From: Leptolyngbya sp. NIES-3755
GTDB taxonomy: Bacteria; Cyanobacteriota; Cyanobacteriia; Leptolyngbyales; Leptolyngbyaceae
Length of the DNA: 64,000 bases
Reading direction: 5' to 3'
Assembly (NCBI GenBank): GCA_001548435.1
Contig: AP017308.1
Span: 3,791,030 to 3,855,029, forward strand
Below are positions 6,483 through 23,750 of the stretch, in pieces; position 1 is the first letter of the stretch; every line of letters starts with the position of its first letter. The notes beneath the pieces are model-generated. The model did not search any database. It was not told the DNA's origin and saw nothing but the letters and a program-made list of their open reading frames with translations. Made by a program: the position numbers and the translations under genes.

Positions 6483-8447
6483 TTAAGGCGATTGATTTTG
6501 CACCCAACGCATCCATTGTTCAAACGATCGCATTCCATTCAATCCTTTCAGCCCCGGAACATTCGCTGACTGCAAATCATCCACTGCCACGATCGCTGCA
6601 TATTGAAGTCCTAAAAAGCTATCCACTGCTGCATAAGGTCCTCCAAGTGTCATCGCTCCCGCTGCATACATTCGCGCCGTACCATTTCTCATGCCATTGA
6701 TTTCAAACGCATTGCTGACAGAAAGCCGCTGAGTCGGATTAAGTTCAAGCTTGTAGCGCAGCACCAGATCTTTGAGCAATGGACTAAATTGAATTTCATT
6801 CGTTAGACCCGTGGCATCAATCAGAAAATCCACTTTGATCATTTGCTCATTTGTAATTCGTCCTTCTGCTTTCTCTAAGGTGTCGATTCGGAGATGATCG
6901 CCTTGTCGCTGCAAATCTTTGATCTCACCAAACAAAATCCGATACCAACCCGATCGAATTCCTTGATCAATCATTTCTTGCCAATCTCGTCGATCGGCAG
7001 TGGTCGTTCCACCCCAGTCACTCAGGAGCCGCTTGCGTTCTTCAGGAGTGGCATTTTCTAATTTCTCTCTCAGTTCCCCGCCCCAACAAGCTTTGGGCCA
7101 ATTAAACGGTTGGAGTTCTTGATGATTTTTCACCACCCGCTGAGAAGTTTCATAGCGATGTCCCTGCGGCACAGGCGATCGGAGTAGGTGAATCAGTTGA
7201 ATCTTACATCCCTCTTGTCGCATCTCATAAATTCGCTGAATGATCCGAGATGCCACAATGCCGCGACCTTGCAGAATCACAATGCCACCTCCACGGCTTT
7301 TAAGCTGTTGATAGAGATGCTGATGGTCTTCATACGCATTCACTACTAAGCGATCGTGAAATGCTTCTTTGGTTTTCTCTCGATAAGCTGTTACTAATGG
7401 CAAATAACGCAGAGCAGGATAGCCAATTGCGACTTGAACCTGTCGTGCCACTAAATAGCGATAGTCCGAACCTTGAACACTACTGCGAGAATAAGCAATC
7501 ACATAGCGATCGTCATTGGTTTTGCGAATTGCTCGAATATCTCCGTAACGGAACATCTGCTGCCATCCGATTCGGCGAATTTCTCGATCGATAGAATCAA
7601 AGACTCTTCCCGATCGCGGTGTGTAAGTTTCGATTCCTGTCGGTTCTGCAAAGACTTGCCACAACAGTTTTAGTGCATGACCCATCTCGCCCTTACTAAA
7701 ATCTGTCCAAGCTTCTCTCAGGGCGTAGCTCGGAAACCCCCAAATGTTATCTGGGCACGAATCAGAGTTCGATCGAAGTCTTTCATGAGCAGGAATTTGA
7801 GAGAATTCACAGAGTTGCTTATAGTTCCAGTACGGTTTCTGATTTGCATCGGGGCGAATGTTACCGGATTGATCAAACTGAACTTTGCCCAACACTCGAA
7901 TTTGATCGGCACGAATTCCAGAGAGTCTTAGTAAATCAACCCAGACAAAACTTCCTAACCCTCCACCCAGTGCCGCAAAATCAATCTGCTCGATCTCTTT
8001 ACCTTCGCGAGCTAAATCAGACAGAGAAACGCGATCGCTTTCAATCAACCAAGCAGGCGGAAAGTTCGATTGGGGTCGAATTGCAGGTGAACGAGCAGTT
8101 GTCGTGACCCGTGAAGGAAACTGAGTTCGCAATACAGTGATTTGAAAAGGTCCCACTTGCAACACATCACCATCGGCTAAAGTTGCCGTCTCACAACTTC
8201 GACCATTGACTAAAATGCCATTACTGCTTCGTCGATCGCTCACGATCAATTCTCGATCTTTCCACTCGATCAAGGCATGAAACCGGGACACTTGAAGACT
8301 ATTGAGGATCACATGCTGTCGTTCTGGAATGCCTTCAGCCGCGATCGCTTCAGGACTGCGACCGATTGCGATCGGGGTAATCGCGACAATTTCTTGTTCG
8401 GCTTCAGTCACCGGGTCATTCCAAAACAGCGTAACAGTAACAGGCAT
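6483..8447 (-). CDS. FHA domain fused to FAD/NAD(P)-binding oxidoreductase-like protein
   Basis: The 654-aa product has an N-terminal FHA phosphothreonine-binding domain (residues about 20-105; IGRSPEA, SRFHALIEW and SSNGILVNG are the conserved blocks). After a short Arg/Pro linker comes a long flavoprotein-like part starting near 155 (DFAALGGGLGSFVWVDLLR) and ending with AAGAMTLGGPYAAVDSFLGL, typical of FAD-NAD(P)-binding folds of the PF13454 kind. The first glycine motif is degenerate compared with GxGxxG. A phospho-signal would thus be read by a redox-like module. It is the second gene after the small FHA protein (3-nt gap) at the left edge of the phospho-signalling island. The substrate is unknown. 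Confidence 0.8.
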   Translation of the reverse strand: MPVTVTLFWNDPVTEAEQEIVAITPIAIGRSPEAIAAEGIPERQHVILNSLQVSRFHALIEWKDRELIVSDRRSSNGILVNGRSCETATLADGDVLQVGPFQITVLRTQFPSRVTTTARSPAIRPQSNFPPAWLIESDRVSLSDLAREGKEIEQIDFAALGGGLGSFVWVDLLRLSGIRADQIRVLGKVQFDQSGNIRPDANQKPYWNYKQLCEFSQIPAHERLRSNSDSCPDNIWGFPSYALREAWTDFSKGEMGHALKLLWQVFAEPTGIETYTPRSGRVFDSIDREIRRIGWQQMFRYGDIRAIRKTNDDRYVIAYSRSSVQGSDYRYLVARQVQVAIGYPALRYLPLVTAYREKTKEAFHDRLVVNAYEDHQHLYQQLKSRGGGIVILQGRGIVASRIIQRIYEMRQEGCKIQLIHLLRSPVPQGHRYETSQRVVKNHQELQPFNWPKACWGGELREKLENATPEERKRLLSDWGGTTTADRRDWQEMIDQGIRSGWYRILFGEIKDLQRQGDHLRIDTLEKAEGRITNEQMIKVDFLIDATGLTNEIQFSPLLKDLVLRYKLELNPTQRLSVSNAFEINGMRNGTARMYAAGAMTLGGPYAAVDSFLGLQYAAIVAVDDLQSANVPGLKGLNGMRSFEQWMRWVQNQSP

Positions 8448-8450
8448 AAG

Positions 8451-8975
8451 TTAATGGTTTTGGGGAATGTAAACAGAAGCTCCATGCAGCGGAAAGCCAT
8501 CATTCGGACAGCGACCGTTCAACTGTCCATACTCTTCGTAAGTGTAGCCCGTGTGACAATGCGGACACATCAGCGGCTTCATATCCGGTTTTGGAGATTC
8601 GATCGGGGGCGTGGGGGGAACGGTGACCGCTTTTGGAACCAGGACTGCAATGACAAATTCTCGTTTTCCAAGCTGTAAAACTCCATTTTTATCGATCGCA
8701 ACTGGAGTATCGTAAACCATCTGACCATAAAGCTTGGGAGGATTGCTTCCGCCTTTCAAATTGTGGAGAAAAAAGCGATCGCGCTCCGGATCAAAATAGA
8801 TTTCCACGTGTAATTTAGAAACCGATAAATCTTCTGGAGTGACGGATGGCAACACCAAATCACAAGTTAAGGGATCTCGCCCAATCCGAAACCGATTCGC
8901 ACTGGTTCCAGGCTGATTCGATCGAATCACTTGACTTTGAGTTCCGCTATTCCAGGTGAGAACCAACTCTTTCAT
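8451..8975 (-). CDS. FHA domain protein with C-terminal zinc ribbon
   Basis: The 174-aa product carries a FHA domain (FRIGRDPLTCDLVLP, then SVSKLHVEIYFDPE) at residues about 10-115 and a Pro-rich linker. A C-terminal zinc ribbon follows, with CPHC and CPNDG knuckles near 137 and 155. FHA domains bind phosphothreonine peptides on kinase targets. The gene opens the left-going operon with the FHA-oxidoreductase gene. The ATG at 8973-8975 is chosen because it directly precedes the domain; an in-frame start 69 nt further upstream exists and neither has a strong ribosome site. Confidence 0.8.
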   Translation of the reverse strand: MKELVLTWNSGTQSQVIRSNQPGTSANRFRIGRDPLTCDLVLPSVTPEDLSVSKLHVEIYFDPERDRFFLHNLKGGSNPPKLYGQMVYDTPVAIDKNGVLQLGKREFVIAVLVPKAVTVPPTPPIESPKPDMKPLMCPHCHTGYTYEEYGQLNGRCPNDGFPLHGASVYIPQNH

Positions 8976-9362
8976 TGCGATCAATGGATACGTTTCTCTA
9001 ATCGTGAATCTGAATCCCATTTCTAGATTGCAGATTCCGGACAAGATTATTTTATCGGTGTTCGTTATTCTACTGGTAGGTTTGTAAAGAGCGATCGACT
9101 GAACAACATTATTTAATTAATGGGCTTTTGTAGCTTGAATCAGCAAGTGCAAAAAACTTAACATTCGTCGGTTTTGAATCTAAAAGAATCCGTAGAATAG
9201 CTGGTAGAGTTTGAATATCTACTCACGCTTTGTTTTAACTCTGCAAGCATCCGAATTCAGTCTCGTTCTTTGCATCACCGATGCGCGTTCTGTCATTGAT
9301 TGACGATTCAGCGCTGCTGTTGTTTGAACTTACAACCCATGTTGAATTCCAAAAGTCAGCGT
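8976..9362. promoter_or_regulatory. Divergent promoter region of the FHA/PP2C island
   Basis: About 387 nt separate the left-going FHA operon from the right-going PP2C-kinase operon. The stretch is AT-rich (for example ATTATTTAATTAATGG near 9108) and has no credible gene. Both arms must take their promoters from here. I could not identify a specific operator. Confidence 0.5.
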
Positions 9363-10745
9363 ATGAAGAGTCCTAACTATTACGCTCGTACCGAAACTAA
9401 TCAACGAGAAAACAATGAAGATTTTTTTAACGGGTTCTTGATCGAGGATCAAGGGGGACAAGTCCCAGTTTTGGTAGTTGCGGACGGCATGGGAGGACAC
9501 GAACACGGCGAAGATGTCAGTCGTCAAGCGGTGCTGAAAGTCGAAGATTTTCTAAAGAAAACGATTCAGCAAATTGCAGATCACTCTGATCCCGTCGAGT
9601 ACTTAAAACACTGTTTACTCGATGCGATCGAGAGTGCAAATGAGTTGGTTCAACGCATGGTCAGCGTTAATGGCTGGGATCGGGCGGGATCAACGATCGT
9701 GATTGCTCTGGTTTGGCAGAATAAAGTCATTGCAGCAAACTTAGGCGATAGTCCATTATTTCACTGGAGTCAGAAAACGGGCGAACTCGTTCGGGTGACT
9801 CAAGATCATTCGGTTCCAGGCATTCTCGCAGAAGCCAAATTGATCACCGAAGAAATGGCAAGGTATCACGAACGACGCGGACAGTTAGAGTTTTTCTTAG
9901 GAAACAAAACTTTGCCGCAACCTGATCCCGTTTATGAGCGAACTTTAGAACCGAGTGATCTTTTACTTTTATGTTCGGATGGAATTAGTGGATCACTGAG
10001 TCGGGAGCAAGTTCGAGCAATACTAGCGGATTCTACGATCGATTTACCTGATAAAGCGGAGCAACTGATCCAAGCCGCAAGAGACGAAGGAGAAACAGAC
10101 AATCAAACGGTAATGTTATGGCGGCACAAAGTTCCTTCACAAACCACTTCAACTCGTAAGATTGCTCATTCAACCGCAGTCCAAGCTCGATCGCGAAGCA
10201 TGGTGCAAACGTCGCAGCCGACTTTAATTCAATCTTCGATTGCGCCTCAGGTACACTCTCGCGATCGACGAAAGCGATCGATTTCACGCAAAGGACTATT
10301 CATCCTCGGAGCAATTTCTCTCACGATTACGATCACGCTCGTTTGGTTGCTATTTCAAGTCATTGGAGTCTTGCAAGCCCATCTGGGTGGATCAAACCTT
10401 CAACCTGCTGCTAACCCTGTTCAACAACCCATTCAGCCCAAACCTGCCCCAAAAGTTCAATCGTTTCAGGGTTCTGTGATCACGACGATCGATGAGAATA
10501 ATCAAATCATCGAGTGGGCAGCCCCCAAGCTAAAACCGGGAGAAAAAGAATGTCGATCGAACATTCCAGATGTGACTGATATTCAAATCATCGTGAGTCA
10601 ATCCGATGAGCAACTGACCACACAAAGCGAAAGAACCAGGTGCATTCGAGTTTGGAAGCCCAAACTTTCTCAAGGAGTCTCACCTCGACCCACAACCCCC
10701 TCTGTAGAGGTTCCGATCGTCTCTATTCAAGGTGAACGCGCATGA
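9363..10745 (+). CDS. PP2C-family Ser/Thr phosphatase with membrane helix
   Basis: The 460-aa protein has a PP2C (PPM) catalytic domain at residues about 5-250: TNQRENNEDFF, VVADGMGGHEHGED, AGSTIVIALVW and LLCSDGISGSLS carry the metal-binding aspartates, with DNQTVMLWR closing the domain. A Ser/Arg-rich linker leads to one transmembrane helix (LFILGAISLTITITLVWLLF, about 307-327) and a 130-residue extracytoplasmic tail. It should remove phosphate from Ser/Thr of targets of the neighbouring kinases. The ATG at 9363 is chosen because it directly precedes the domain; upstream in-frame starts exist. Its stop overlaps the kinase start in ATGA. Confidence 0.9.
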   Translation: MKSPNYYARTETNQRENNEDFFNGFLIEDQGGQVPVLVVADGMGGHEHGEDVSRQAVLKVEDFLKKTIQQIADHSDPVEYLKHCLLDAIESANELVQRMVSVNGWDRAGSTIVIALVWQNKVIAANLGDSPLFHWSQKTGELVRVTQDHSVPGILAEAKLITEEMARYHERRGQLEFFLGNKTLPQPDPVYERTLEPSDLLLLCSDGISGSLSREQVRAILADSTIDLPDKAEQLIQAARDEGETDNQTVMLWRHKVPSQTTSTRKIAHSTAVQARSRSMVQTSQPTLIQSSIAPQVHSRDRRKRSISRKGLFILGAISLTITITLVWLLFQVIGVLQAHLGGSNLQPAANPVQQPIQPKPAPKVQSFQGSVITTIDENNQIIEWAAPKLKPGEKECRSNIPDVTDIQIIVSQSDEQLTTQSERTRCIRVWKPKLSQGVSPRPTTPSVEVPIVSIQGERA

Positions 10746-12301
10746 GATGTCTCAATTGCGGTTTCGACAAGTTGCCGCTCAATTCAGCCCATTGCACCAA
10801 CTGTGGTGTTCATCTTCCATCCCTATTACGGGATTGTTTGGAATCAGGAACATTACTACACCATAATACTTACCGAATCGATTATCCTCTCGGTCGAGGC
10901 GGATTTGGCATTACCTATCGTGCCTTTGATATTCATCTCGAACGATCAGTCGCGATCAAAGAGTTTTACCCACAAGAACATGCTTTTCGTGAAGGATTAA
11001 CCGGACGCTTAGTGATTCCAAATACCAAGCAGGATGTGTATCATCGTGGACTCCAGCGATTTTTGCGAGAAGGAACGCTACTAGCAAAGCTAAAACACTC
11101 TGGTGTGGTTGATGTTTACAACGCCTTTCAAGAGCGGGATACAGCTTATCTCGTGATGGAATTGATCAAAGGGCGAACGTTGCGCGATGAACTGGAAGAA
11201 CAACCCGGACGGCGATTGAATGTCGATCGTATTCGCGAAATTATGTCTCAGTTGGTGAATGCGCTTACTGTCGTGCATCAGCAAGAGATGTATCACCTCG
11301 ATATTGCTCCAGATAATGTGCTGGTGTCTTCTGACGGTCGCGTTGTCTTAATCGACTTTGGAGCTTCCCGGCAAGGCTTAGGAGGGGGAACCACGCAAGC
11401 TTTTAAAGAAGCGTATGCGCCTCCTGAAGTAATCGACGGAAAACATACTGATGCTCGGAGTGATTTATTCGAGTTAGGCATGATGTTGCACGAACTCTTG
11501 AGCGGAGAATTACCTCCTTCATCGATTTCACGACTTTTGAGCTATGCCCATCATGGGGCTGAGCTTTGGGACCCGATGCAAGTTTCAGAACCTTGGCGTA
11601 GTTTGATTGGGAGTGCGATCCGACTGAATCCTGATGAGCGTCCCAGAGAGGTTCAAGCTTGGTGGAAGTCGCTCGATTTCGCCAACCAAGAAACAGTGCT
11701 TACTCCCCAAAGAACACCCACTCCGCAGCGTTTTCCAACTCCGGTTCCGTTGCCTGATCCAATACCTTCTCCGATTCCGCCCACGGTGGTCATTCCCAAG
11801 ACAAGTCGTCCACCTACGCCGATTCCAACCCCAGTTCCAACCCCAGTTCCAACCGTTCAAGACTTTACCTCACCTGCGATCGCATCTCCACCCTCCAGAC
11901 CGAAATATGCCGGATTTTGGTTGAGATTGGTTGCAGATTTAATCGATCGAACAATCCTCATTCTTGCGAGTGCGATCGTGCTGGCAGCCAATCGCGATCA
12001 ACCCAATATCAATGACTATTTTCAATCGATCACGGTGCTCTACATCTTTCTCGGATTGTTATATACCTCTGTGCTGGAAAGTTCCAGAATGCAGGCAACT
12101 TTCGGCAAGTATCTGATGGGAATTCAGGTTACAGATAGAAATTGGAGACGGTTAACGTTACAGCGAGCGTTTGTGCGAGATCTGTGCAAAATCTTCTCCT
12201 ACATCACTTTCGGGCTTGGATTCCTGATGGCATGTTTTACAGAAACCCGTCAGGCACTACACGACAGCATCACCAACTGTTTCGTCATAAGGAAAACCTA
12301 A
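10742..12301 (+). CDS. Zinc-ribbon Ser/Thr protein kinase with C-terminal RDD membrane domain
   Basis: The 519-aa product opens with a zinc ribbon (CLNC at 3-6, CTNC at 18-21). The kinase domain follows at about 40-300: glycine loop LGRGGFGITYRA, catalytic lysine in VAIKEFYP, catalytic loop YHLDIAPDNVL, and DFGASR. The HRD arginine is replaced by leucine (HLD), a variant also present in the kinase at 17273. A Pro/Thr/Val-rich linker (PTPVPTPVPT) leads to an RDD membrane domain (AGFWLRLVADLIDRTILI to RQALHDSITNCFV) that anchors it. It overlaps the PP2C gene by 4 nt, so kinase and phosphatase should be made together. Confidence 0.9.
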   Translation: MRCLNCGFDKLPLNSAHCTNCGVHLPSLLRDCLESGTLLHHNTYRIDYPLGRGGFGITYRAFDIHLERSVAIKEFYPQEHAFREGLTGRLVIPNTKQDVYHRGLQRFLREGTLLAKLKHSGVVDVYNAFQERDTAYLVMELIKGRTLRDELEEQPGRRLNVDRIREIMSQLVNALTVVHQQEMYHLDIAPDNVLVSSDGRVVLIDFGASRQGLGGGTTQAFKEAYAPPEVIDGKHTDARSDLFELGMMLHELLSGELPPSSISRLLSYAHHGAELWDPMQVSEPWRSLIGSAIRLNPDERPREVQAWWKSLDFANQETVLTPQRTPTPQRFPTPVPLPDPIPSPIPPTVVIPKTSRPPTPIPTPVPTPVPTVQDFTSPAIASPPSRPKYAGFWLRLVADLIDRTILILASAIVLAANRDQPNINDYFQSITVLYIFLGLLYTSVLESSRMQATFGKYLMGIQVTDRNWRRLTLQRAFVRDLCKIFSYITFGLGFLMACFTETRQALHDSITNCFVIRKT

Positions 12302-12302
12302 A

Positions 12303-13442
12303 ATGATCAATCAGCTTCAGTATGTTGGAATTCCAAAACGGTGTCTTGCGCTATTCATTGATGGCTTGATTCAAACCGTTGTGGGCTTTGTGGTCTTTTT
12401 TGGCATTTCCAAAGTAGAACTCGAAACCACAACAAAACTATTTTCTTATGCGCTCCTCGCGGCGGTGGTTCAATGGGGCTACTACGGCTTGATGGAAAGC
12501 TCCAAAGCGCGAGGAACATTCGGCAAAATGGCGCTAGGGATTAGTGTCTGTAATTCAATGGGTGGACAGATTTCACTCAAACAAGCCACGCTTAGATTTT
12601 TGGGCAAATCGCTTTGGTTCGTGCTCTTTTTTGTGGGAGCCGCGATCGCACTGGTTCCTCTCGTTGCAGGCAAGCAAAACTCACCCCTGCTGTTTATTAC
12701 AATGGCGCTCTGGTTAGTCTCCTTCTTGCTGGGAGCCGTGGGTTATCTGATGCCCGCCTTTATTCCAGAGCGACAAGCATTGCACGATCGGATTGCTCAT
12801 ACGTTTGTGATTGAAGATGATAGTGCCGATCGACAAGTTTCGCAGAAAATTATCTTTCAAATGATTGCGATCGCGGTTGTTGCAAGATTGCTCTTCAATG
12901 TCATTCCAGGAATTCCAATTTCGATTACAAATAGCAATAACGACTCTTCTCAAGCGAATCAGCAAACCCCTGTTCGCAATACTCCAAACCGAGGGACGAC
13001 TGGCTCTAAGCGTCCTGCCAATTCAAATACCACTCCAGAAGCGTTAACGATTACTCGTTGTGGAGTTACAGAGCAACTGTCGCCCCCCAGTCCGAATTCT
13101 TACATTGATGGGGATTGGAAGGTGAATTTTGCAGTGGGCATCGAAGCTCATGAATCGACGCTGAGAATGAAGGGAGCCACTGGAGTGATGCGAACTCAAT
13201 TCTTTGACAAAGATGCGAATAAAACCAGAACGGTCGTACAACAAATGAACCTCAAAGTTTCTTCAAGCGGAATTTGGTTGCTCGGATCAAATCCGGTGAA
13301 TGAGGAAACGAACCAACCTGATGCAAATTACAGCCCGGATAACATTTTCATGCAGCGTGCTCCATCCGGTCAATTTAATGCTGTGAACTGCGATAACAAT
13401 AACAATCTTTCGCGTGTGTCGATCGCCCCTGTTAATAACTAA
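12303..13442 (+). CDS. RDD-family membrane protein with extracytoplasmic tail
   Basis: The 379-aa product has an RDD domain in its first 165 residues (KRCLALFIDGLIQTVVGFVV with the conserved Arg/Asp positions, ending ERQALHDRIAHTFV). A further hydrophobic helix (IIFQMIAIAVVARLLFNVI) leads to a Ser/Thr/Asn-rich tail containing a small domain with two cysteines. RDD proteins are poorly characterised; some act in ion transport. It starts 1 nt after the kinase stop and shares the RDD module with that kinase, so the two may associate in the membrane. Confidence 0.8.
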   Translation: MINQLQYVGIPKRCLALFIDGLIQTVVGFVVFFGISKVELETTTKLFSYALLAAVVQWGYYGLMESSKARGTFGKMALGISVCNSMGGQISLKQATLRFLGKSLWFVLFFVGAAIALVPLVAGKQNSPLLFITMALWLVSFLLGAVGYLMPAFIPERQALHDRIAHTFVIEDDSADRQVSQKIIFQMIAIAVVARLLFNVIPGIPISITNSNNDSSQANQQTPVRNTPNRGTTGSKRPANSNTTPEALTITRCGVTEQLSPPSPNSYIDGDWKVNFAVGIEAHESTLRMKGATGVMRTQFFDKDANKTRTVVQQMNLKVSSSGIWLLGSNPVNEETNQPDANYSPDNIFMQRAPSGQFNAVNCDNNNNLSRVSIAPVNN

Positions 13443-13482
13443 GCTTATGCACGATCGTGTTTTGCAAAACTATCGAGGTGGC

Positions 13483-14682
13483 ATGATTGCGCTCCAGATT
13501 CCATCGATCGATCAAGTCGAATTGCTCGATTTGCTCGGAGTCGGTGGCTTTGGAACCGTTTGGAAAGTTCGCAATCCAGCAACCGGAAAGCTCTATGTGC
13601 TCAAGATCATTCAGGCGATTAAACCGAATACGGTGCTGGTTGAACGAGTTCGACTAGAGGCTGAAGTTTCAATTCCATCGAAGCATATTGTTCCGGTCGT
13701 TGGTTTGAAGGAATGGGATTCGAGTACGTTTCTGATTTTGTTTGAACTGTTTGAAGCGCGATCGCTGGATAAAGTTCTGGCAGAAGAAACCCTGAAACCT
13801 GAGCAAAAACGCCAAATTTTCGATCAGATCTTGATCGGAGTTGCAGATGCTCATCGAAGTAACATCATTCACCGGGATCTCAAGCCAGAAAACATTCTCG
13901 TTGGCAAAGATCACCATGTGAAGCTGATCGATTTTGGACTCTCGAAGTTCAAAGGCAAAGGATTAACGCTGACCGGTGAAGTCATGGGGACACCACCGTA
14001 TATGTCTCCCGAACTCTTGATCTATGGATCTAAGATTGCGGATGCGCGAGTCGATATCTATGCGCTTGGACATATTTTGTATGAATTAGCAATGGGCTAC
14101 ACCTTTTGGGCAAAACAAGGCTGGCTCGCCAATCGATTTGATAACTTTGTCAAATTCTTGGGGCAAAACCCACAACCGACCGAGTGCATCGATTTGAGCG
14201 ATTTCCACTGCGACTTTTATCACAATGCGATCGCCGTTCTGGCTCGGATGGTGAAAACCAACGCAGACGATCGATTCGCATCGGTTGAAGAAGTGATCAT
14301 GGCACTGACTCATGAACCGAGTCGAAAAACAATGCCGCCGATTCCGGAAGTTGAAGAAAGCAGGGGTATCTCCTTTAACTATCCTTTGCTCACGGTAGAA
14401 TCTGGAACAAATCGCGATGCTCGAACGCTAGTGGCACTAGAACCGGGAGAGTCGATCGTACTGGGTCGAGCCGATATTGCAGGGAATGATCTGAGTATCA
14501 GCAGCAAGCATCTCATGTTTACTCGCCAGCATGGACGCTATTTTGTCAATGACTTTCATAGTAAAAACGGAACTCTGCTTCGCGGCATGTTACTCAATCC
14601 GAATGCTCCCCCAATGGAAGTGCAGAACAACGATCGCATCAAGGTTGGGGATATTTTTCTTCGCTTCAATTCACCTGTTTGA
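13483..14682 (+). CDS. Ser/Thr protein kinase with C-terminal FHA domain
   Basis: The 399-aa soluble protein has a kinase domain (about 10-270) with canonical motifs: LLGVGGFGTVWKV, YVLKIIQ lysine, IIHRDLKPENILV and DFGLSKF, then GTPPYMSPE in the activation segment. A FHA domain follows at about 300-395 (IVLGRADIAGNDLSISSKHLMF, FHSKNGTLLRG). A kinase that also reads phosphothreonine can bind its own or a partner's phosphorylated site. The ATG at 13483 has GAGG at proper spacing; an in-frame ATG at 13447 is an alternative. Confidence 0.9.
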   Translation: MIALQIPSIDQVELLDLLGVGGFGTVWKVRNPATGKLYVLKIIQAIKPNTVLVERVRLEAEVSIPSKHIVPVVGLKEWDSSTFLILFELFEARSLDKVLAEETLKPEQKRQIFDQILIGVADAHRSNIIHRDLKPENILVGKDHHVKLIDFGLSKFKGKGLTLTGEVMGTPPYMSPELLIYGSKIADARVDIYALGHILYELAMGYTFWAKQGWLANRFDNFVKFLGQNPQPTECIDLSDFHCDFYHNAIAVLARMVKTNADDRFASVEEVIMALTHEPSRKTMPPIPEVEESRGISFNYPLLTVESGTNRDARTLVALEPGESIVLGRADIAGNDLSISSKHLMFTRQHGRYFVNDFHSKNGTLLRGMLLNPNAPPMEVQNNDRIKVGDIFLRFNSPV

Positions 14683-14709
14683 TTGTCCCACTACTGTTTA
14701 AGGTTTGTT

Positions 14710-15723
14710 ATGAAAACTTGTGTTCACTGCGGCGCGACCAATCCAGATGCAGCAAATTTCTGCCTCGACTGTGGCAAAGCCATCCATTCTAGTTCGATGC
14801 AGCAAAACCAAATTCCTCAAACGGTAATGCCCCAATCGAGAATGGCTCCCGATCAATCGAATTCGACGATCATCGATGTGCCGCAATCGAATTCGACGAT
14901 CATTGATGTCCCGAATCAAGATCAACAAGTGCCGCACCAAGGGCAAGTTCCTAAACAAGCTCCCGCCCCTACGTTGATTCCACAGTCGCGGAAACCGCAA
15001 GTTCCCGATACGATCGCGGCTCCCTCCAACGCGACGATTCCCGATGCAAAATCTCCGAACTATGTTGATCCTCAACAGTTTCAAGCCCTTTACCAAAAAG
15101 TCATTCAGAACCAGCGCAAAGCGGACATTCTATTTGTGCTTGATTGTACGGGAAGTATGCAAGGTGAAATCGATGCGGTTCGCGATGCCATTACTTCATT
15201 TGCCGACACGATTCAATCCCAATCTGTTCGTGCCAGAGTCGGACTGATTGAATTTCGCGATCGCTTAATCGGGGAAGAACAACGAGTCTTACTGTTCGAG
15301 GGTGAACCGTTTACGAGCAATCCCACTCTATTCCGCGAACAAGTTGGAAAACTCCGAGCTTCAGGCGGCGGTGACGAACCGGAGAGCAGCTTAGATGCCG
15401 TCTTACTCGCACTCGATCAACCCTTCGATCCGACGGCAAACAAAGTCATCGTTCTCGTCACCGATGCCCCTCCTCATCTGCCTGATGTGACTGTTCAGAG
15501 CATTGATCAAGTGGTGCAAAAAATGCGAGAAATCACAGTCGATCAATTCTATGTTGTGATGAAAACGAGTGATCAACGCAGCCAAGTTTATCTTCGACTC
15601 TTAGAAGGTAGACGAGGACTTGCCTTTGAAATTGGCAGCGGAGATGATTTTAGAACTCGTGCAGAAGACTTTAAGCGCACCTTGATGGCACTGGGCAAAA
15701 CTATTTCAACCGCAACCCGATAA
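14710..15723 (+). CDS. Zinc-ribbon VWA-domain protein with TxxD-repeat linker
   Basis: The 337-aa product starts with a zinc ribbon (CVHC at 4-7, CLDC at 18-21). A low-complexity Pro/Gln linker (30-125) follows, then a von Willebrand A domain from about 140 with the metal-site motif DCTGSMQGE and TDAPPHLPD. The linker contains SNSTIIDVP twice and NATIPD once, so threonines 53, 63 and 109 each have Asp at +3, a spacing favoured by several FHA domains. It lies between the kinase-FHA and FHA-PrsW genes. A good ribosome site (AAGG) supports the ATG at 14710. VWA, PP2C and kinase together recall the TerY-P triad; TerY identity is not shown. Confidence 0.88.
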   Translation: MKTCVHCGATNPDAANFCLDCGKAIHSSSMQQNQIPQTVMPQSRMAPDQSNSTIIDVPQSNSTIIDVPNQDQQVPHQGQVPKQAPAPTLIPQSRKPQVPDTIAAPSNATIPDAKSPNYVDPQQFQALYQKVIQNQRKADILFVLDCTGSMQGEIDAVRDAITSFADTIQSQSVRARVGLIEFRDRLIGEEQRVLLFEGEPFTSNPTLFREQVGKLRASGGGDEPESSLDAVLLALDQPFDPTANKVIVLVTDAPPHLPDVTVQSIDQVVQKMREITVDQFYVVMKTSDQRSQVYLRLLEGRRGLAFEIGSGDDFRTRAEDFKRTLMALGKTISTATR

Positions 15724-15725
15724 AC

Positions 15726-17051
15726 ATGAGCCAACTTACACTCTCTTGGCAAGAAGCAGGCAATCCGCGATCGCGCTCGTTCGATCTGACTCAACCGATT
15801 CACAAAAGCATGTATGCGCTTCGATTGGGGCGCGATGCGGAACAATGTGATGTCGTCTTTGATGATCCGAGTGTATCCAGACTTCATGCTGAGATTCGAT
15901 GGCATCCTGCGACTCAAGAGTTCTCGGTTCAAAATCTGCGCGATATTAACCCGATCGCAGTCGATGGTCGGCTCTTGAGCCAGGGAACTCAAATAATTCG
16001 ATCGGGAACGATGATTGTCCTTGGAGATACGACCATTCAAGTGGCTCAACTTCAGCAAGCTCCTGGAGTGAATCCTTTTCAACCGCCTGTTCTGGAGACT
16101 CCAGTTCCCGTCGAAGCTTCGCCCAGAGTTGAACCGATCCGATTGCCTGCGAGTTCGATCACGTTCAGTCACTATCTTCCGCTTGCAGGTACAAGCCGCG
16201 AATTGAGACAACAGGGCTATCTCTTACCGGGAGTAATTACGGTACTCTGGGTTGTTTTGATGTTCTCAAGCTTGGGTCGCCCTGGAGTCTTTAACTTCCT
16301 GTTAGCAGGTTATTTAGGCATTGCCGGATTTTATTTAATTTATAAGCTCTGTGGAAAACGGAAGCCGGGATGGGTGATTGCGATCGCGATTATCATGACT
16401 CCGATTTTGCTCTTAACCCCGGTTTGGGGTGCGATCGCGTTTTTCTTCCGCGTTATTCTCCCTGGTCGAATTCCTGAGAGCGATGATGTTGGCTTTATTC
16501 CATTATTTATTTCATTCTTTTTTGGGGCGGGTCTTGCCGAAGAACTCTTAAAAGCAATTCCAATCTTTGTTTTAACTTGGTATGGTCGCACAGTTTCACC
16601 TGGACTACGCCAACGATTAGGCGTGACAGAACCTTTGGACGGAATCATACTAGGAGCCGCTTCAGGGTTAGGGTTCACTTTGCTTGAAACACTCGGACAA
16701 TACATTCCGAATTTAGTTCAATCGGTCGCAATGCAAACTGATCCAGGTTCAGCCCAATTGATCGGACTACAGCTTCTGATTCCCCGAATTGTTGGCTCTG
16801 TGTTTGGTCACATGGCTTATAGTGGTTACTTTGGTTACTACATCGGACTGAGCGAATTAAAACCCAGAGGACGATGGAAGTTTCTAGCAACAGGTTATTT
16901 AATCGCATCCGGTGTTCATGCTTTTTGGAATTCAAGCTCAGCCTTGGGAACTTGGGCATTAGGACTGGCTGGAATCATTGCTTATTGTTTGCTAATTGGG
17001 GCAATTCTCAAGGCTCGGCAGCTTTCACCGAATGTGAATAAGCCGCTGTAA
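15726..17051 (+). CDS. FHA domain fused to PrsW-type intramembrane protease
   Basis: The 441-aa protein has an N-terminal FHA domain (residues about 25-110; LRLGRDAEQCDVV, SVSRLHAEIRW). A polytopic membrane part from about 155 has the three PrsW signatures: EELLK at 272-276, GFTLLE downstream, and HAFWN from residue 398. PrsW proteases cut anti-sigma factors inside the membrane in Firmicutes (established for B. subtilis RsiW). Here the FHA domain would let a threonine-phosphorylated partner recruit or gate the protease. It starts 2 nt after the VWA gene and ends the operon before a strong terminator. Substrates are unknown. Confidence 0.88.
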   Translation: MSQLTLSWQEAGNPRSRSFDLTQPIHKSMYALRLGRDAEQCDVVFDDPSVSRLHAEIRWHPATQEFSVQNLRDINPIAVDGRLLSQGTQIIRSGTMIVLGDTTIQVAQLQQAPGVNPFQPPVLETPVPVEASPRVEPIRLPASSITFSHYLPLAGTSRELRQQGYLLPGVITVLWVVLMFSSLGRPGVFNFLLAGYLGIAGFYLIYKLCGKRKPGWVIAIAIIMTPILLLTPVWGAIAFFFRVILPGRIPESDDVGFIPLFISFFFGAGLAEELLKAIPIFVLTWYGRTVSPGLRQRLGVTEPLDGIILGAASGLGFTLLETLGQYIPNLVQSVAMQTDPGSAQLIGLQLLIPRIVGSVFGHMAYSGYFGYYIGLSELKPRGRWKFLATGYLIASGVHAFWNSSSALGTWALGLAGIIAYCLLIGAILKARQLSPNVNKPL

Positions 17052-17075
17052 ATTCAATTAATCTTTCTAATCTTA

Positions 17076-17119
17076 GCTCCGTCTGTGCAGGCAATTCAGG
17101 CAGGACGGAGCAATTTTTT
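17076..17119 (+). terminator. Rho-independent terminator of the phospho-signalling operon
   Basis: GCTCCGTC (17076-17083) pairs perfectly with GACGGAGC (17104-17111), followed by AA and six T residues. It closes the operon that begins with the PP2C gene. Confidence 0.88.
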
Positions 17120-17272
17120 GTCTCTACTACAAATTAGACGCATCAGTTGGCAGTTTTCGGCAAGATAGCTTGATGATTCCACTCAATCTCTGACCTCGAT
17201 CGAACCTTACTATCAAGTCAATACAACATTTCTCGACTAGCAATGCCAACATAAAGAAGGAAAGTGAAACTA

Positions 17273-18826
17273 ATGTATACCGCACTTCCCCCAGGGACTC
17301 TCCTAAATTATGGTAAATATGAAATTATCCGAGTGCTAGGACAAGGCGGATTTGGAATTACTTATGAAGCAAAGCATCTTGGACTAGGAGGCAGCGTTGC
17401 GATTAAAGAGTTTTATGCTCAAGAATATGCCCAACGCGAACATACAACTGGGCAAATTGTTGCCATTACTTCCGCAGATTCTTATCAACGAGCATTACAG
17501 CGATTTATTCGAGAAGGACGCATCTTAGAAGGCATTGATCATCCCAATATTGTACGAGTTCGCGATCTGTTTGAAGAACGCAGTACGGCTTACTTAGTCA
17601 TGGATTTTATTAAGGGTCAGACCTTGAGAGAAGAGCTAGAGCAACTTCCAAATCATCGCTTACGATCGGCGCAAATTGGCGTAATTATCGAAGCTCTAGT
17701 TTCAGCATTAGAAACCGTTCATCAAAACAATATCTATCACTTAGACATTAAGCCAGAGAACATTCTGATTACGGATCATCGGCAGGTGAAGCTGATTGAT
17801 TTTGGTGCAGCCCGTCAAGGGTTTAGTAGTAGAACCACTCGCGCTTATTCTCCAGCTTATGCGGCTCCAGAAGTCATCGCTGGCAATGATATCTCTGGTG
17901 CAAGTGACTTATTTGAACTCGGAATGGTGCTGTATGAAATGCTCGTGGGTGAGCCTGCTCCAACTGCAACTCAGCGACTCGTAAGCATTGCCGTCGAGAA
18001 CCAAGATTTGATCAAGTTTGATCCGCTCGAACAACCTTGGAAAGCCTTACTCGAAGACGCTTTACACTTGAGAATCGAACAGCGATCGCATTCTGTCCAG
18101 TCCTGGTGGAATCGCGCCCAGAACTATTGGCACGAACAACAAAAAATAGACCAGCAAAAGCCAACGATCAAAGCTCCACCTGCACCGACGATCGTAGAAT
18201 CTCGCGTCGATCGTAAACCAACTGAACCGATCAGTCCGACTGCAAAATGGACAGCCGCAATTGTCAGTGTTGGCATTGTTAGCGCGATCGGTTATTTAAA
18301 CTTTGCCCCCCAATCCGAACATGAAACAGCAACCACGCCCGCCCCCAAAGCTTCAGAAGTCGCTCAAGTTGAACCCACGACGATTCCCTGTAATGTCGAT
18401 GCAAAACCGCGATCGCTGACTCAACCCCCCGTTCTAATCATCAAAGATGCCAAAAATGGTCGGAACTTCGAGTTCTACGGCAAAGTAGACAGTCAGAAAC
18501 GGTTACAAGGTGAGGGAACGGTCATCTACTCTAGTGGTTCTCGGTACGATGGCAACTTCCTAAATGGAGAGCGTCAGGGTTGTGGTCAACATAACTTTGC
18601 AGCAGATCATCCAACCCTCAAGAGCTATGTGGGACAGTTCCAGGGCGATCGATTTAATGGCTTAGGAATATTGTCCTTCAAGAATGGCAATCAGTACATC
18701 GGAGAGTTCAGGAAAGGACACTGCGAAGGTCGGGGGGTGTTCATTCTATCGGATGGAACTAGAAAGCCCGGCATATGGACAAACGATGAGTCAGAAGGCA
18801 ATCCTTCCTGCTCTACTGGCGTATAG
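17273..18826 (+). CDS. Membrane Ser/Thr protein kinase with MORN-repeat tail
   Basis: The 517-aa product has a kinase domain (about 8-275): VLGQGGFGITYEA, VAIKEFYAQ, YHLDIKPENILI (HLD in place of HRD) and DFGAAR. A linker leads to a transmembrane helix (WTAAIVSVGIVSAIGYL, near 330). The last 120 residues hold about four MORN-type repeats (LQGEGTVIYSSGSRYDG, FNGLGILSFKNGNQYIGEF, CEGRGVFILSDGTRKPG), which should lie outside the cytoplasm and may sense lipid or wall components. A GTG 9 nt upstream is an alternative start. It has its own promoter region after the terminator at 17119. Confidence 0.88.
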   Translation: MYTALPPGTLLNYGKYEIIRVLGQGGFGITYEAKHLGLGGSVAIKEFYAQEYAQREHTTGQIVAITSADSYQRALQRFIREGRILEGIDHPNIVRVRDLFEERSTAYLVMDFIKGQTLREELEQLPNHRLRSAQIGVIIEALVSALETVHQNNIYHLDIKPENILITDHRQVKLIDFGAARQGFSSRTTRAYSPAYAAPEVIAGNDISGASDLFELGMVLYEMLVGEPAPTATQRLVSIAVENQDLIKFDPLEQPWKALLEDALHLRIEQRSHSVQSWWNRAQNYWHEQQKIDQQKPTIKAPPAPTIVESRVDRKPTEPISPTAKWTAAIVSVGIVSAIGYLNFAPQSEHETATTPAPKASEVAQVEPTTIPCNVDAKPRSLTQPPVLIIKDAKNGRNFEFYGKVDSQKRLQGEGTVIYSSGSRYDGNFLNGERQGCGQHNFAADHPTLKSYVGQFQGDRFNGLGILSFKNGNQYIGEFRKGHCEGRGVFILSDGTRKPGIWTNDESEGNPSCSTGV

Positions 18827-19078: not shown

Positions 19079-19498
19079 ATGACTTCACGTGCAACTCAAT
19101 TCGCTAAATTCGCAGCTTCGATCGCGGTTCTCTCATTAGGCGGACTGTTCGTTTTATCTTCCCCGTCTTTTGCATCAGAAGCTTCTCTAATTGCGGTTGA
19201 TAACGAGTCTACTCCCAAGCCTTCCACCTCGCCGAGTACCGAGTCTACTCCCAAGCCTTCCACCACCCCGCCGAGCACCGACTCCACTCCCAAACCTCAA
19301 ACACAACCTCCGGCACAGCAACCTCCTGTACAGCAACCTCCTGTACAGCAACCTCCTGTACAGCAACCTCCGGCACAGCAACCTCCCGCACAGGAATCTC
19401 AACCCCCTGCACAGCAACAACCTCCCGCACAGCAACAATCTCAACCTCCCGTACAGCCACAGTCCAGACCCGTTCAACCCTTGCCAATGATGTGGTAG
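19079..19498 (+). CDS. Secreted Pro/Gln-rich repeat protein
   Basis: The 139-aa product has a signal peptide (FAASIAVLSLGGLFVLSS, cleavage likely after SFA near 31). The mature part is entirely repetitive: ESTPKPST-type units, then PAQQPPVQQ-type pentapeptides, ending PLPMMW. It resembles cell-wall or extracellular linker proteins, with no catalytic domain. A clear ribosome site (AGGAG) stands before the ATG. The repeat array makes long frames in the other five readings; those are shadows. Confidence 0.75.
   Translation: MTSRATQFAKFAASIAVLSLGGLFVLSSPSFASEASLIAVDNESTPKPSTSPSTESTPKPSTTPPSTDSTPKPQTQPPAQQPPVQQPPVQQPPVQQPPAQQPPAQESQPPAQQQPPAQQQSQPPVQPQSRPVQPLPMMW
19306..19395 (+). repeat. 15-bp coding tandem repeat
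   Basis: Six tandem copies of a 15-bp unit of the form ACCTCCTGTACAGCA, three identical (19321-19365) and three with 2-3 changes. It encodes the PPVQQ/PPAQQ pentapeptides. Copy number could vary by slippage. Confidence 0.85.
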
Positions 19499-19545: not shown

Positions 19546-19636
19546 CTAAGCAACTCTCTCTTTAGATGGATGACTTTTCTATAAAAATTCTCTGAAACCT
19601 GATATGCTGTCCTGAAACGTTCAGGAAGAAATAACA

Positions 19637-19962: not shown

Positions 19963-21018
19963 ATGGTAGTGACTGCTCCAGTTCGTGAAGTCCGCGCTCC
20001 TAAGTTGTGGATGCCCGATCGCGTTTTGTTTACGCCCGCTGCATTGGATGAGCCGTGGGGACAGCAGATTAAGGAGCGCGTTCAGGGTTTGAATTTACCG
20101 ATCGAAGAGTTGCCGCGCAATCGACTCACCGGATTACGGGGTGAGGATGAGCGTGAGACGTATAGCATTTCTAAGCGTACTTTAGCGGTAGTGACTGCTC
20201 CTCAGAGCCAGTTTAAGCTCAGTCCGATTCCTCCTTCTGCGGATTGGCAGTTTCACATTGCAGAGGGGTGTCCGGGACATTGCCAGTATTGTTATCTTGC
20301 AGGCAGTTTGTCGGGTCCGCCTGTGATTCGGGTGTATGCGAATCTGCCGCAGATTTTGGACAATTTAGGGCGGTATGAGCGTCCCGGTGCTGAGACGAGC
20401 TACGAGGTGAGTTGTTATACTGACCCACTCGGCATTGAGCATTTGACGGGTAGTTTGGCAGAGTCTATTCGCTACTTTGGCACACGCGAGGATGGTTACT
20501 TGCGCTGGGTGTCGAAGTTTAGCAATGTCGAAGGCTTGTTAGATTTGCCGCACAATGGACATACTCGCTGTCGGGTGAGCGTGAATGCGAATCCTGTGAG
20601 TCAGCGGTTAGAGGGTGGCACGTCTTCGGTTGAGGAGCGGCTTCAAGCGCTGCGACGACTCGGTTTAGAGGGTGGCTATCCGTTGGGGATTGTGATTGCA
20701 CCGATTATGCCGATCGACAATTGGCAAGAGCATTATACGCAGTTGCTCGATCGCATGTCTGAGTTGATTGATTTTGATTGTGATCTGACATTCGAGTTGA
20801 TCTCGCACCGATTCACGCCCGGATCGAAGGAAGTGTTGATGAATTGGTATCCGAATACCAAGCTCGATATGGATGAGGCTGCTCGTGTGGTGAAGCGCAA
20901 TAAGTTTGGGGGCATGAAGTACGTTTACGATGCCAAGACCATGCGCGAGTTGCGTCAGTTCTTTGAGCGCGAGTTAGCGCACCGATTCCCGCAGGGTAAG
21001 GTTCTGTATTGGACCTAA
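19963..21018 (+). CDS. Radical SAM protein, spore photoproduct lyase family
   Basis: The 351-aa product has the radical SAM cluster motif CPGHCQYC (CxxxCxxC) near residue 106 and matches the cyanobacterial branch of the spore photoproduct lyase family (YSISKRTLAVV, EVSCYTDPLGIEHLTG, FELISHRFTPGSKEV). Spore photoproduct lyase repairs thymine dimers in Bacillus spores by radical chemistry; cyanobacteria do not sporulate, so the role here, probably repair or another radical reaction, is open. The ATG at 19963 is used; a TTG 9 nt upstream is less likely. Confidence 0.88.
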   Translation: MVVTAPVREVRAPKLWMPDRVLFTPAALDEPWGQQIKERVQGLNLPIEELPRNRLTGLRGEDERETYSISKRTLAVVTAPQSQFKLSPIPPSADWQFHIAEGCPGHCQYCYLAGSLSGPPVIRVYANLPQILDNLGRYERPGAETSYEVSCYTDPLGIEHLTGSLAESIRYFGTREDGYLRWVSKFSNVEGLLDLPHNGHTRCRVSVNANPVSQRLEGGTSSVEERLQALRRLGLEGGYPLGIVIAPIMPIDNWQEHYTQLLDRMSELIDFDCDLTFELISHRFTPGSKEVLMNWYPNTKLDMDEAARVVKRNKFGGMKYVYDAKTMRELRQFFERELAHRFPQGKVLYWT

Positions 21019-23750
21019 GGTTTGCCGCGATCGCAGAGTTGCCGCTCTCGATCGCTCACCGTCGGATTGGTCTCAAGATAATCTTTTAGCCAATCACAAG
21101 CGGTTGTGAGTAATCGATCGAGTTTGACATTATCAACCACTCGCAGCATTCCTTCTTGATCGATTGTCACAATCTGCTGTCCATCTTGACTGAACTCCGC
21201 CTTATTGCCTTGCCATTCTCCCAGTTGCTCTCCAGCCATTGTCCAGAGGCGAGTCACACCATTCGCGCCGCTGGTTAGGATTTGCTGACTATCAGAACTA
21301 AGGCTCAATCCGTAAATGTTATTCGGATGCGCTTTGAACTCGTGCAGTTTGTCGCCTTTGGATGTCCAGATATTCACCATTCCATCCATTCCCGTTGTAA
21401 TGATTCGATTTTGGTCAGGCGTGAATCGAACACTGAGAATATTGGCATCAGACTGACTCACAGGAATCGATCGAATTAAATTTCCCGCCCTGTCCCAAAG
21501 CTTGATTGTGGCTCCGAGCGTCGTTGCAATCTGTTTGCCATTTGCTTGAAAGCTCACATCATAGACGCGGACATTTTTCTCTAACTCTTTCTGGAGTTGT
21601 CCCGATCGGCTCCAAAGTTTTGCACCCTGATCCGCAGCCGTCGCAATCTGTTCTCCGTTCGGGCTAAATTTCAGATTCAAAATCCGCCGAGAGTCTGCCT
21701 TAAACTCACCCATTTCCTTTCCTTGACGGTTCCACAATCTCACCGTTCCTGTTTGATCTCCGGTTGCGATCGTTTGTCCGTCCGGGCTAATCGCCACACT
21801 CCACACTGGAACTTTAGAACTGAGTTGCACTTGACGCTGTGGATCGAAATTCCAGATCGATATCGTTCCCTCTGTTCCCTGCTTGCCCTGTTTGCCCACC
21901 GCCACGATCGCGCCATCGCGAGTCAGCGTCATGCCCAATAGTTCATTCTCAGACGCTCTCACGGCATTAGTTTGTCGCATCAGATCCCAGACACGAATCG
22001 TTCGACCGATGCCCGCAGTCGCAAGATATCGCCCATTTGGACTGACCGCAAGGGCGTAGAGCGTCGATTCATGAGCCGAGCGAAATTCAGGTGCAGAGTT
22101 CGCAACATTCCAAACCTCGATCGTGCCGTCTGTTCCTCCGGTGACTAAGTGCCGACCTTCTGGAGTAAAGATGGACTGATCGCCAACAAACTGTCGAATG
22201 ACTTGTCCATTCAAGGTTCTGAGCCAAATTGTTCCCTCTGCTGCGATCGCCATTTGGTTCTGAGTCATCTTTAAATCGAAAATGGTTCCAGTCGTTGAAT
22301 AACTGCGTAATTTTGGATGATTGCTTGGCAAAATTTCGCCTTTTTGATTCCACCAAGTCACACCGCCATCTGTTCCACCCGTTGCCAGATATTTTCCATC
22401 TGCGCTGAAGTTGATTGCTCGAAACATCGGAGACCGAGATCGAGGAAGATTCGGCTTAAGAATTGCTTTTGATTGCCCTGTCGCTGTCCAAAGCTGCGCG
22501 GCTCCATCTTTGCGAACGGTTGCAAACGATCGACGATCTAAACTAAATCGGGCTTGCACAAGTTTTACCTTTTGAGGTATCCAGGCGATCGCTTTTCCAG
22601 TTAAATCCCAACGTCCAAGGCTGCTGTCACTCCAAACGGTAAGCACTTCTTTTCCTTCAGCATTGAAGCTGAGTGCTGCTAGTCCTCTATCAGAGGGAAG
22701 TGCAAACTGAGCAATCTTTTTCCCCTGAACGGTTGAGATTTGCACAAATCCTCGTCCTCCGGTTGCCATGAGGGTGCTGTCTGGACTGAACGCGATCGCA
22801 AAAACGCTACCCGATTCAGTCCGAAGTTGATTCCGCTCTTGAATTCGACTCAACATCGTTTGCAGAGTCAGAATCGGACGCGGAGTGGGATAGTCTTCTA
22901 ACCGTCGAGCATTTGGGGCGAGACTTTGCAGATTGCGTCCTTGTTTTACTGCTTCAAGGAGTGCAGGCAATTGGGCTGTTTCAAATTGTCGCAGGGCTAA
23001 GACACTCCCAGAATCGATCTCATTGACTCTGCGGTTTTGCCAGAGTAGGAAACTGATAAATGCTGCGATCGCAATCGTTCCCCCTAGAATGACTGAGCCA
23101 AACTGAACCATTTTTTCCGCTCGTTTTCCAGCATCGAGAATTCGCTGGTTTGCGATCTCGACTTCTCGGCTTTTCTGAATGTAAGTTCGTTGCTGTTGAG
23201 TCGGCGGTAAATGGTGATCTGATGATTTTAGCCATTGTTCTGCAAGGTTGAGATCATCGCCGCGCAGCAGAAAGCTATCGTTTCGTGCATTGTTTTCCCA
23301 CTCCACCGATCGGACAATCAATCGGGTATGCAGCCGAACTTCTTCTAAGTCCGTGTCCATGATCTCTAGCAAAGTCTGAAACGCTTGTTCAACCTTGCTT
23401 GGATCAGTGAAATAGAGCCAATTATGTTCTTTTAGAACCTGATGTGCATTACTGGTTAGCTTGAATTCAAAGCCTTCACGATAAACGATCGGAACAATCC
23501 GCTTGTGATGTAAAACAGCGTGATCGATTTCTTGTTCGCAAACTTTCGACGCGATCGAGTCGGGTGACAACACAAACACAAACGTATCTGCACCTTCGAT
23601 ACCGCGCTGAATTTCCTGCCACCACTTTGCAGTGGGTAGAATATCTTGCCAATCAACCCAAGCTTCTCGCCCCTTGGCTTCGATCATGTAATGCAGTTTT
23701 TGCACAGCATCTTGATCTTTACGAGAATACGAGATGAAAACGTCACTCAT
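21015..23750 (-). CDS. TIR domain, membrane helix and WD40 propeller protein
   Basis: The 911-aa product begins with a TIR domain (SDVFISYSRKDQDAV, GREAWVDWQDILPT, FVFVLSPDSIASKVCEQEI), residues 1-140. A helical linker and one transmembrane segment (FGSVILGGTIAIAAFISFLL, about 217-237) follow. From about 310 come at least 13 WD40-type repeats (FSPDGQTIATG-like blocks), enough for two propellers. TIR domains scaffold or cleave NAD+; no activity can be claimed here. The last 4 nt overlap the convergent radical SAM gene. The start at 23750 places the TIR domain at the N terminus. Confidence 0.9.
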   Translation of the reverse strand: MSDVFISYSRKDQDAVQKLHYMIEAKGREAWVDWQDILPTAKWWQEIQRGIEGADTFVFVLSPDSIASKVCEQEIDHAVLHHKRIVPIVYREGFEFKLTSNAHQVLKEHNWLYFTDPSKVEQAFQTLLEIMDTDLEEVRLHTRLIVRSVEWENNARNDSFLLRGDDLNLAEQWLKSSDHHLPPTQQQRTYIQKSREVEIANQRILDAGKRAEKMVQFGSVILGGTIAIAAFISFLLWQNRRVNEIDSGSVLALRQFETAQLPALLEAVKQGRNLQSLAPNARRLEDYPTPRPILTLQTMLSRIQERNQLRTESGSVFAIAFSPDSTLMATGGRGFVQISTVQGKKIAQFALPSDRGLAALSFNAEGKEVLTVWSDSSLGRWDLTGKAIAWIPQKVKLVQARFSLDRRSFATVRKDGAAQLWTATGQSKAILKPNLPRSRSPMFRAINFSADGKYLATGGTDGGVTWWNQKGEILPSNHPKLRSYSTTGTIFDLKMTQNQMAIAAEGTIWLRTLNGQVIRQFVGDQSIFTPEGRHLVTGGTDGTIEVWNVANSAPEFRSAHESTLYALAVSPNGRYLATAGIGRTIRVWDLMRQTNAVRASENELLGMTLTRDGAIVAVGKQGKQGTEGTISIWNFDPQRQVQLSSKVPVWSVAISPDGQTIATGDQTGTVRLWNRQGKEMGEFKADSRRILNLKFSPNGEQIATAADQGAKLWSRSGQLQKELEKNVRVYDVSFQANGKQIATTLGATIKLWDRAGNLIRSIPVSQSDANILSVRFTPDQNRIITTGMDGMVNIWTSKGDKLHEFKAHPNNIYGLSLSSDSQQILTSGANGVTRLWTMAGEQLGEWQGNKAEFSQDGQQIVTIDQEGMLRVVDNVKLDRLLTTACDWLKDYLETNPTVSDRERQLCDRGKP

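Follow-up and report, generated by a model that had tools for sequence, protein, structure and literature searches.

Proteins with FHA, VWA and PP2C domains are common in bacteria, and the way in which they are wired together is seldom known. The closest described systems join such parts in small modules: the TerY-P triad consists of a VWA protein, a PP2C phosphatase and a kinase (PMC7699616, PMC11090510), the KKP module of the phosphatase PfpC and the kinases PfkA and PfkB (PMC11341870) and the zinc-ribbon FHA protein ArnA of the Sulfolobales binds the phosphorylated VWA protein ArnB, which is reversed by PP2A (PMC10470591). Here we analyse a locus of the cyanobacterium Leptolyngbya sp. NIES-3755 that lies in a window of 64,000 nucleotides (nt), corresponding to bases 3791030-3855029 of a 6.2-Mb contig (AP017308.1) in an assembly of 6.76 Mb; positions given below are those of this window. 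Genes A to H (6483-17051) are a real conserved unit of eight genes, encoding Ser/Thr kinases (D and F), a PP2C phosphatase (C), FHA domains (A, B, F and H), a VWA protein (G), RDD membrane proteins (D and E) and a PrsW-type protease (H). No description of this cassette was found in the openly readable literature, and one may exist in subscription papers (Anantharaman 2012 among them), which that search did not cover.

The conserved unit and its borders

The order and orientation of genes A-H are the same in two other species of the genus, represented by the loci L059 (genome G246) and L060 (genome G249). BLASTN homology spans positions 6484-17035 in the comparison with L059 and 6504-17036 in that with L060, and stops at both edges of A-H in both congeners, where the flanks differ: the left neighbour, an antiporter, is kept in L059 and the right one is not, while the reverse holds for L060. 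The original prediction had described an island of nine contiguous genes, but the ninth, gene I, is located at a different contig and locus in G246 and has no comparable match in G249, where the match is limited to the kinase of gene D; in L060, moreover, the DNA after H resumes at position 19552, so that the segment holding gene I is lacking. Since homology ends after H and gene I is unlinked in both relatives, the nine-gene unit was rejected in favour of one of eight genes. The features are the following (Pfam values in brackets):

6483-8447, minus strand: gene A, FHA domain (1.6e-12) followed by an uncharacterised C-terminal domain of about 530 amino acids (aa)
8451-8975, minus strand: gene B, FHA domain (5e-6) and a C-terminal zinc-ribbon-like part; 174 aa from the ATG at 8975
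8976-9362, no strand assigned: intergenic region separating the divergent genes B and C and conserved in all three species, a candidate shared regulatory region
9363-10745, plus strand: gene C, PP2C phosphatase (PP2C_2, 1e-11) with one predicted transmembrane (TM) helix
10742-12301, plus strand: gene D, N-terminal zinc ribbon (CxxC...CxxC), Ser/Thr kinase (Pkinase, 8e-39) and C-terminal RDD domain (8e-24)
12303-13442, plus strand: gene E, RDD membrane protein (3e-21) with an extra TM segment and a C-terminal domain of about 190 aa
13447-14682, plus strand: gene F, Ser/Thr kinase (Pkinase, 1e-42) with a C-terminal FHA domain (7e-11); likely start at ATG 13447
14710-15723, plus strand: gene G, zinc ribbon, Thr-rich linker and VWA domain (VWA_4, 1e-15); likely start at ATG 14710
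14854-14913, plus strand: tandem repeat in the G linker, encoding SNSTIIDVP twice
15726-17051, plus strand: gene H, FHA domain (6e-13) and a multi-TM PrsW-type intramembrane metalloprotease (PrsW, 9e-35)
17264-18826, plus strand: gene I, Ser/Thr kinase (1e-47), TM segment and MORN repeats, outside the conserved unit

The domain content claimed in the original prediction (three kinases including that of gene I, one PP2C phosphatase, four FHA domains, VWA, RDD, PrsW and MORN) was confirmed throughout by Pfam. Its remark on short gaps and overlaps holds within A-B and C-H, where gaps measure 1-27 nt (D-E 1, E-F 4, F-G 27 and G-H 2 nt) and C and D overlap by 4 nt; gene I starts 212 nt downstream of H. 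These distances use revised starts for B (8975), C (9363), F (13447, for the E-F gap) and G (14710, for the F-G gap); in the case of C the longest open reading frame begins at TTG 9300, the likely start being ATG 9363. Genes A and B are encoded on the opposite strand and diverge from C-H. The kinase domain of gene I is about 46% identical to that of gene D, of which it is a close paralogue, and gene I may have been recruited later.

The products of C, F, H and I contain catalytic motifs. Gene C has the PP2C motifs ED, DGMGG, GDS, SDG and DNQT and a C-terminal domain predicted to lie beyond the membrane; gene F, with its kinase at residues 37-289 and its FHA domain at 350-412, has HRDLKPEN, DFG, GR, SxxH and NG motifs. 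The FHA motifs GR and SxxH are found in all four FHA domains (A, B, F and H), and TM prediction places four of the eight proteins in the membrane. As the whole genome yields 17 FHA matches, four FHA domains in a single block represent a strong concentration. A further FHA domain (E 3.4e-12) was observed elsewhere in the window, at 50996-51217 on the minus strand, in an open frame of 546 codons.

Across the three genomes of the genus the ratio of non-synonymous to synonymous substitution rates (dN/dS) is 0.05-0.20 for each of the eight genes, at a dS of about 0.7-1.6, therefore the block has been kept by purifying selection. The clustering exceeds chance, given that gene order persists at this divergence and that F and G are confined to the identical three genomes in a sample of 244 cyanobacterial genomes, in which scoring was limited to a few candidates per genome. 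Three of the eight genomes of the genus carry the island and, because the other five are without it, it is regarded as accessory rather than essential. The view of the original prediction that writers, an eraser and readers form a single linked island of phospho-signalling genes is thus supported for A-H.

The region between B and C is also conserved, with a mean column identity of 82% over 471 columns, some of them coding, in a MAFFT alignment of the three genomes; the gap itself (8976-9362) is conserved between the species even though synonymous dS is about 1. It gave no Rfam match and no sigma-70 consensus site, and promoter-like and terminator-like sites in it were not commoner than in shuffled sequences. 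A conserved RNA structure was considered and dismissed, as covariation in three of the 97 predicted pairs was not convincing.

A rare core and its lineage-specific partners

The island is composite, formed by the divergent A-B pair and a C-H operon built on a rare core that comprises a PP2C phosphatase, a kinase-FHA protein, a zinc-ribbon VWA protein and a zinc-ribbon kinase. When named genomes were scanned with a profile of G, 20 close loci were obtained outside the window genome, together with distant VWA proteins, and Pseudanabaenaceae cyanobacterium LEGE 13415 emerged as the closest named relative. An F-type FHA-kinase adjoins G at every one of these loci, which include Calothrix, Rhizonema, Scytonema, Oscillatoria, Roseofilum, Lyngbya, Trichodesmium, Prochloron and Dulcicalothrix; a D-type zinc-ribbon kinase is nearby at 17 and a PP2C phosphatase at 14, contig ends accounting for some of the gaps. 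The 20 loci also include a Sericytochromatia metagenome-assembled genome (MAG) and one contig of an Abditibacteriales MAG (3.4 kb, possibly mis-binned). The conserved gene order envisaged in the original prediction is therefore borne out at two levels, that of A-H in two other species and that of the PP2C/kinase-FHA/VWA/kinase core phylum-wide.

The usual order of the core is C-F-G-D, and in this genus it is C-D-E-F-G-H, where D has an RDD tail and the RDD protein E and the FHA-PrsW protein H are added. Depending on the lineage, the tail of D consists of an RDD domain, TPR, an FGE-sulfatase domain, GUN4 or a zinc ribbon, the last of these being C-terminal in some homologues of the Calothrix group. 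Several loci of that group carry an extra protein with an FHA domain and two TM segments (downstream in some of them) and a related membrane protein of about 210 aa. Since lineages differ in the tail of the second kinase, in the FHA-membrane protein and in whether A-B is present, the core may be seen as a reusable switch whose inputs and outputs can be exchanged. FGE-sulfatase C-termini were observed on core-linked D-type kinases at four loci (L105, L109, L110 and L111); in other systems of cyanobacteria, retroelements have diversified this fold. At another locus (L104, 5125-6609) the core-linked kinase is fused to a tetrapyrrole-binding GUN4 domain (Pfam 1e-40), a fusion that suggests an input related to photosynthetic status.

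Homologues of A occur in 41 of the 244 sampled genomes. At 18 of 20 A loci outside the genus, one genome contributing two of them, the gene immediately upstream of A is a B-like FHA gene in the same orientation, and the kinase and VWA genes of the island are mostly not found nearby. A-B is a common cyanobacterial two-gene unit. In a Scytonema MAG (L115) the pair stands divergently beside a C-F-G-D core. The window genome holds a second A-B pair (G000:C1:2793609-2796087; L058), with a 48% identical A domain and two D/F-like kinase genes within 8 kb.

The C-terminal domain of A had been called oxidoreductase-like. Motifs resembling those of dinucleotide-binding proteins were indeed found, while Pfam and PDB family searches with the roughly 530 aa gave no match. 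In an alignment of 18 members GGGLGS (the first motif, of the form GxGxxS), ATGYPAIKFLP, GRGIVAS and DATGLD are conserved, which suggests an FAD/NAD(P)H flavoprotein with two dinucleotide-binding sites. Comparison by hhalign with Pyr_redox_3 sets reached a probability of at most 9%, which is not significant, and an AlphaFold2 (AF2) model from three rows was unusable, at a predicted local distance difference test (pLDDT) score of 33; the name oxidoreductase is for these reasons a motif-based guess. Viral contigs yielded no relatives of A.

Gene H retains the acidic and histidine motifs of PrsW-type proteases (EELLK, FTLLE, H362 and HAFWN). In the two relatives that carry the island it is 87% identical, forming a lineage seen only with the island, and its full-length matches to the common cyanobacterial FHA-PrsW proteins are at 41-50% identity. 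Such proteins have matches in 57 of the 244 genomes and stand alone in most of these. H was rejected as an orthologue of this widespread family, as a 47% identical paralogue is encoded elsewhere in the same genome.

Two further features of the window lie beyond H: a small Pro/Gln-rich protein with at least nine imperfect tandem repeats at 15-nt spacing (19079-19498), and a 920-aa protein on the minus strand (21015-23777) that combines an N-terminal TIR domain with a C-terminal WD40 propeller (Pfam).

A proposed phosphorylation switch and its rivals

Our preferred reading, to which we give a probability of roughly 45%, is that A-H act as one accessory, membrane-linked Ser/Thr-phosphorylation switch. 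The membrane-anchored phosphatase C would oppose the kinase-FHA protein F and the zinc-ribbon kinase D, with activities that we infer from their domains, on the zinc-ribbon VWA protein G, which would serve as a hub. The balance between kinase and phosphatase may shift when the extracytoplasmic tail of C, the RDD parts of D and E, or both, sense a signal, leading to the phosphorylation of Thr in the repeated SNST(I/L)xD motifs of the G linker. The phosphorylated linker would then be bound by the FHA domains of F and H and by those of the A-B pair, which is encoded divergently, and this docking would gate both the A enzyme and H, the FHA-PrsW protease. The original prediction had guessed at a relay ending in proteolysis and redox change; H and A are its putative outputs here.

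The hub function is suggested by several features of G. The AF2 model of its VWA domain (pLDDT 77) adopts a VWA fold, the top Foldseek matches of which are integrin beta I-like domains, and the metal motif DxTxS reads DCTGS. FHA domains recognise pTxx[D/E] (PMC8786283), and the linker contains three TxxD motifs, two in the tandem repeat and a third, SNATIPDA, downstream of it; the two relatives have two and four. Against composition shuffles these motifs are enriched (P = 0.003 in the window, 0.0003 in L059 and 0.012 in L060). The linker is therefore a candidate pTxxD-like docking site of a phospho-VWA hub read by FHA proteins. Taken further, the cyanobacterial core could be a widespread plug-in phospho-switch, in which the phosphothreonine comb of this genus's VWA protein recruits FHA-tagged outputs, among them an FHA-gated intramembrane protease and a new family of FHA-tagged enzymes; this extension is tentative and we consider it somewhat doubtful. 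If true, it would represent phospho-controlled regulated intramembrane proteolysis.

Several observations weigh against the switch as outlined above. The catalytic loop of D reads HLDIAPDN, with Ala in place of the usual Lys, which makes its kinase activity uncertain, and the FHA domains of B and H lack the NG motif at its usual position. The enrichment of TxxD is suggestive only, because the tandem duplication inflates the count; furthermore, the motif was found in none of 14 distant homologues of G and, being absent from distant cores that retain F and G, it cannot be the ancestral mechanism of the core. The functional link of A-B is weakened by the fact that the pair adjoins the core in one (the Scytonema MAG) of the eight genomes outside the genus that hold both, and the enzyme class of A, being assigned from motifs, is unproven.

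Of the alternatives, an anti-phage or stress defence module of the TerY-P/KKP type appears rather unlikely. The kinases would be its latent toxic output, PP2C the brake and VWA the sensor, and a phage or stress signal blocking PP2C would unleash growth arrest. The components are those of TerY-P (VWA, PP2C and kinase; PMC7699616, PMC11090510) and of KKP (PP2C, kinase and kinase-FHA; PMC11341870), and the patchy distribution, three of eight genomes in the genus and three of 244 in the phylum sample, would suit such a role. However, PADLOC detected no other defence genes among A-H, where generic kinase models alone matched, G gave no match in a scan of viral contigs, and F matches phage proteins over the kinase domain only, at 24-46% identity, for which reason a phage KKP kinase was rejected as its relative. 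The PADLOC results are uninformative in both directions: the kinase matches because these models are also hit by gene I and by other kinases, and the lack of a match for G and C because the bona fide R478 TerY triad, used as a positive control, is itself unmatched beyond weak generic kinase models; PADLOC was abandoned as an arbiter. The RDD parts and the four membrane-embedded proteins could instead point to a regulator of envelope or lipid homeostasis, in which the RDD-kinase and the RDD protein would be sensors of a membrane or lipid ligand and an envelope protein would be processed by PrsW. PrsW is known as a stress-responsive protease of an anti-sigma factor. For RDD, ligand binding at the cytoplasmic face of the membrane has been proposed (PMC12419801). 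The block, however, contains no sigma or anti-sigma gene, and RDD is specific to this genus's version, the D tails of most other cores being soluble or otherwise anchored, which leaves this explanation very unlikely.

It is also conceivable, and in our view unlikely, that two or three unrelated modules (A-B, the kinase/phosphatase/VWA core and a duplicated FHA-PrsW gene) stand side by side with no joint function. A-B and FHA-PrsW genes each occur alone in most of the genomes that carry them, and the window genome has second copies of both elsewhere, as would be expected of independent modules. This view is difficult to reconcile with the joint conservation of all eight genes in three species, with sharp edges and different flanks, with the position of A-B beside the core in Scytonema as well, and with the island-only lineage of H at 87% identity. 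Under the phosphorylation-switch reading, writers, an eraser, a candidate hub and readers are assembled in one conserved block, of which the core is kept and the outputs are exchanged among lineages, and the block would be a compact system in which FHA-dependent control can be tested, perhaps together with phospho-gated intramembrane proteolysis.

Comparison with known systems

The likeness to TerY-P (Anantharaman 2012; Gao 2020) noted in the original prediction lies in the architecture, with VWA (G), PP2C (C) and Ser/Thr kinases (D and F) in one operon and zinc ribbons attached, and does not extend to kinship. G has no phmmer match to three R478 TerY-type VWA proteins and lacks TerY_C, which the R478 control shows at 3e-53, so that membership of G in TerY was rejected; between the R478 kinase and F only 66 aa could be matched, at 29% identity. 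The present block also differs in having two kinases and FHA domains, in the N-terminal position of the zinc ribbon on kinase D and VWA protein G, in the FHA domain that occupies the C-terminus of F, where the kinase of TerY-P is fused to a zinc ribbon or OB fold, and in the absence of ter genes.

With KKP the unit shares a PP2C phosphatase and two kinases on one strand, here with E between D and F, and the architecture of F, a kinase with a C-terminal FHA domain, matches that of PfkB. In KKP the two kinases are toxic together and the phosphatase acts as their antitoxin. The PfkA-type cold-shock-domain kinase, the proposed defining part of KKP, is absent: none of the proteins has a cold-shock domain, and D carries RDD. 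A VWA hub and membrane anchoring are further differences, and KKP is prophage-borne, whereas the present unit is chromosomal, with no relative of G in viral contigs and no phage feature among A-H. The VMAP or vWA-MoxR ternary conflict systems (Kaur 2020) resemble it in their VWA hub and exchangeable effectors, including FGE and GUN4 in cyanobacteria, and differ in that no MoxR ATPase is encoded among A-H. A plasmid cluster of Tolypothrix PCC 7712 (L132; NZ_CP063787, 44072-62659) likewise contains VWA, FHA, PP2C and kinase proteins, one VWA protein being 43% identical to G, but has three VWA proteins, a standalone FHA protein and a kinase-TPR protein in another arrangement.

The mechanistic precedent for an FHA protein reading a phosphorylated VWA protein is, by analogy, the archaeal ArnA-ArnB-PP2A system with its kinases ArnC and ArnD; it was compared by description, and the accessible part of that description records no membrane phosphatase, PrsW or oxidoreductase-like partner. 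Judging from domain content and arrangement, the cassette is probably a new variant within the class of kinase-phosphatase-VWA modules, its FHA-hub mechanism being interesting but unproven. It may represent a bacterial counterpart of ArnA-ArnB that also provides a connection to the defence modules TerY-P and KKP.

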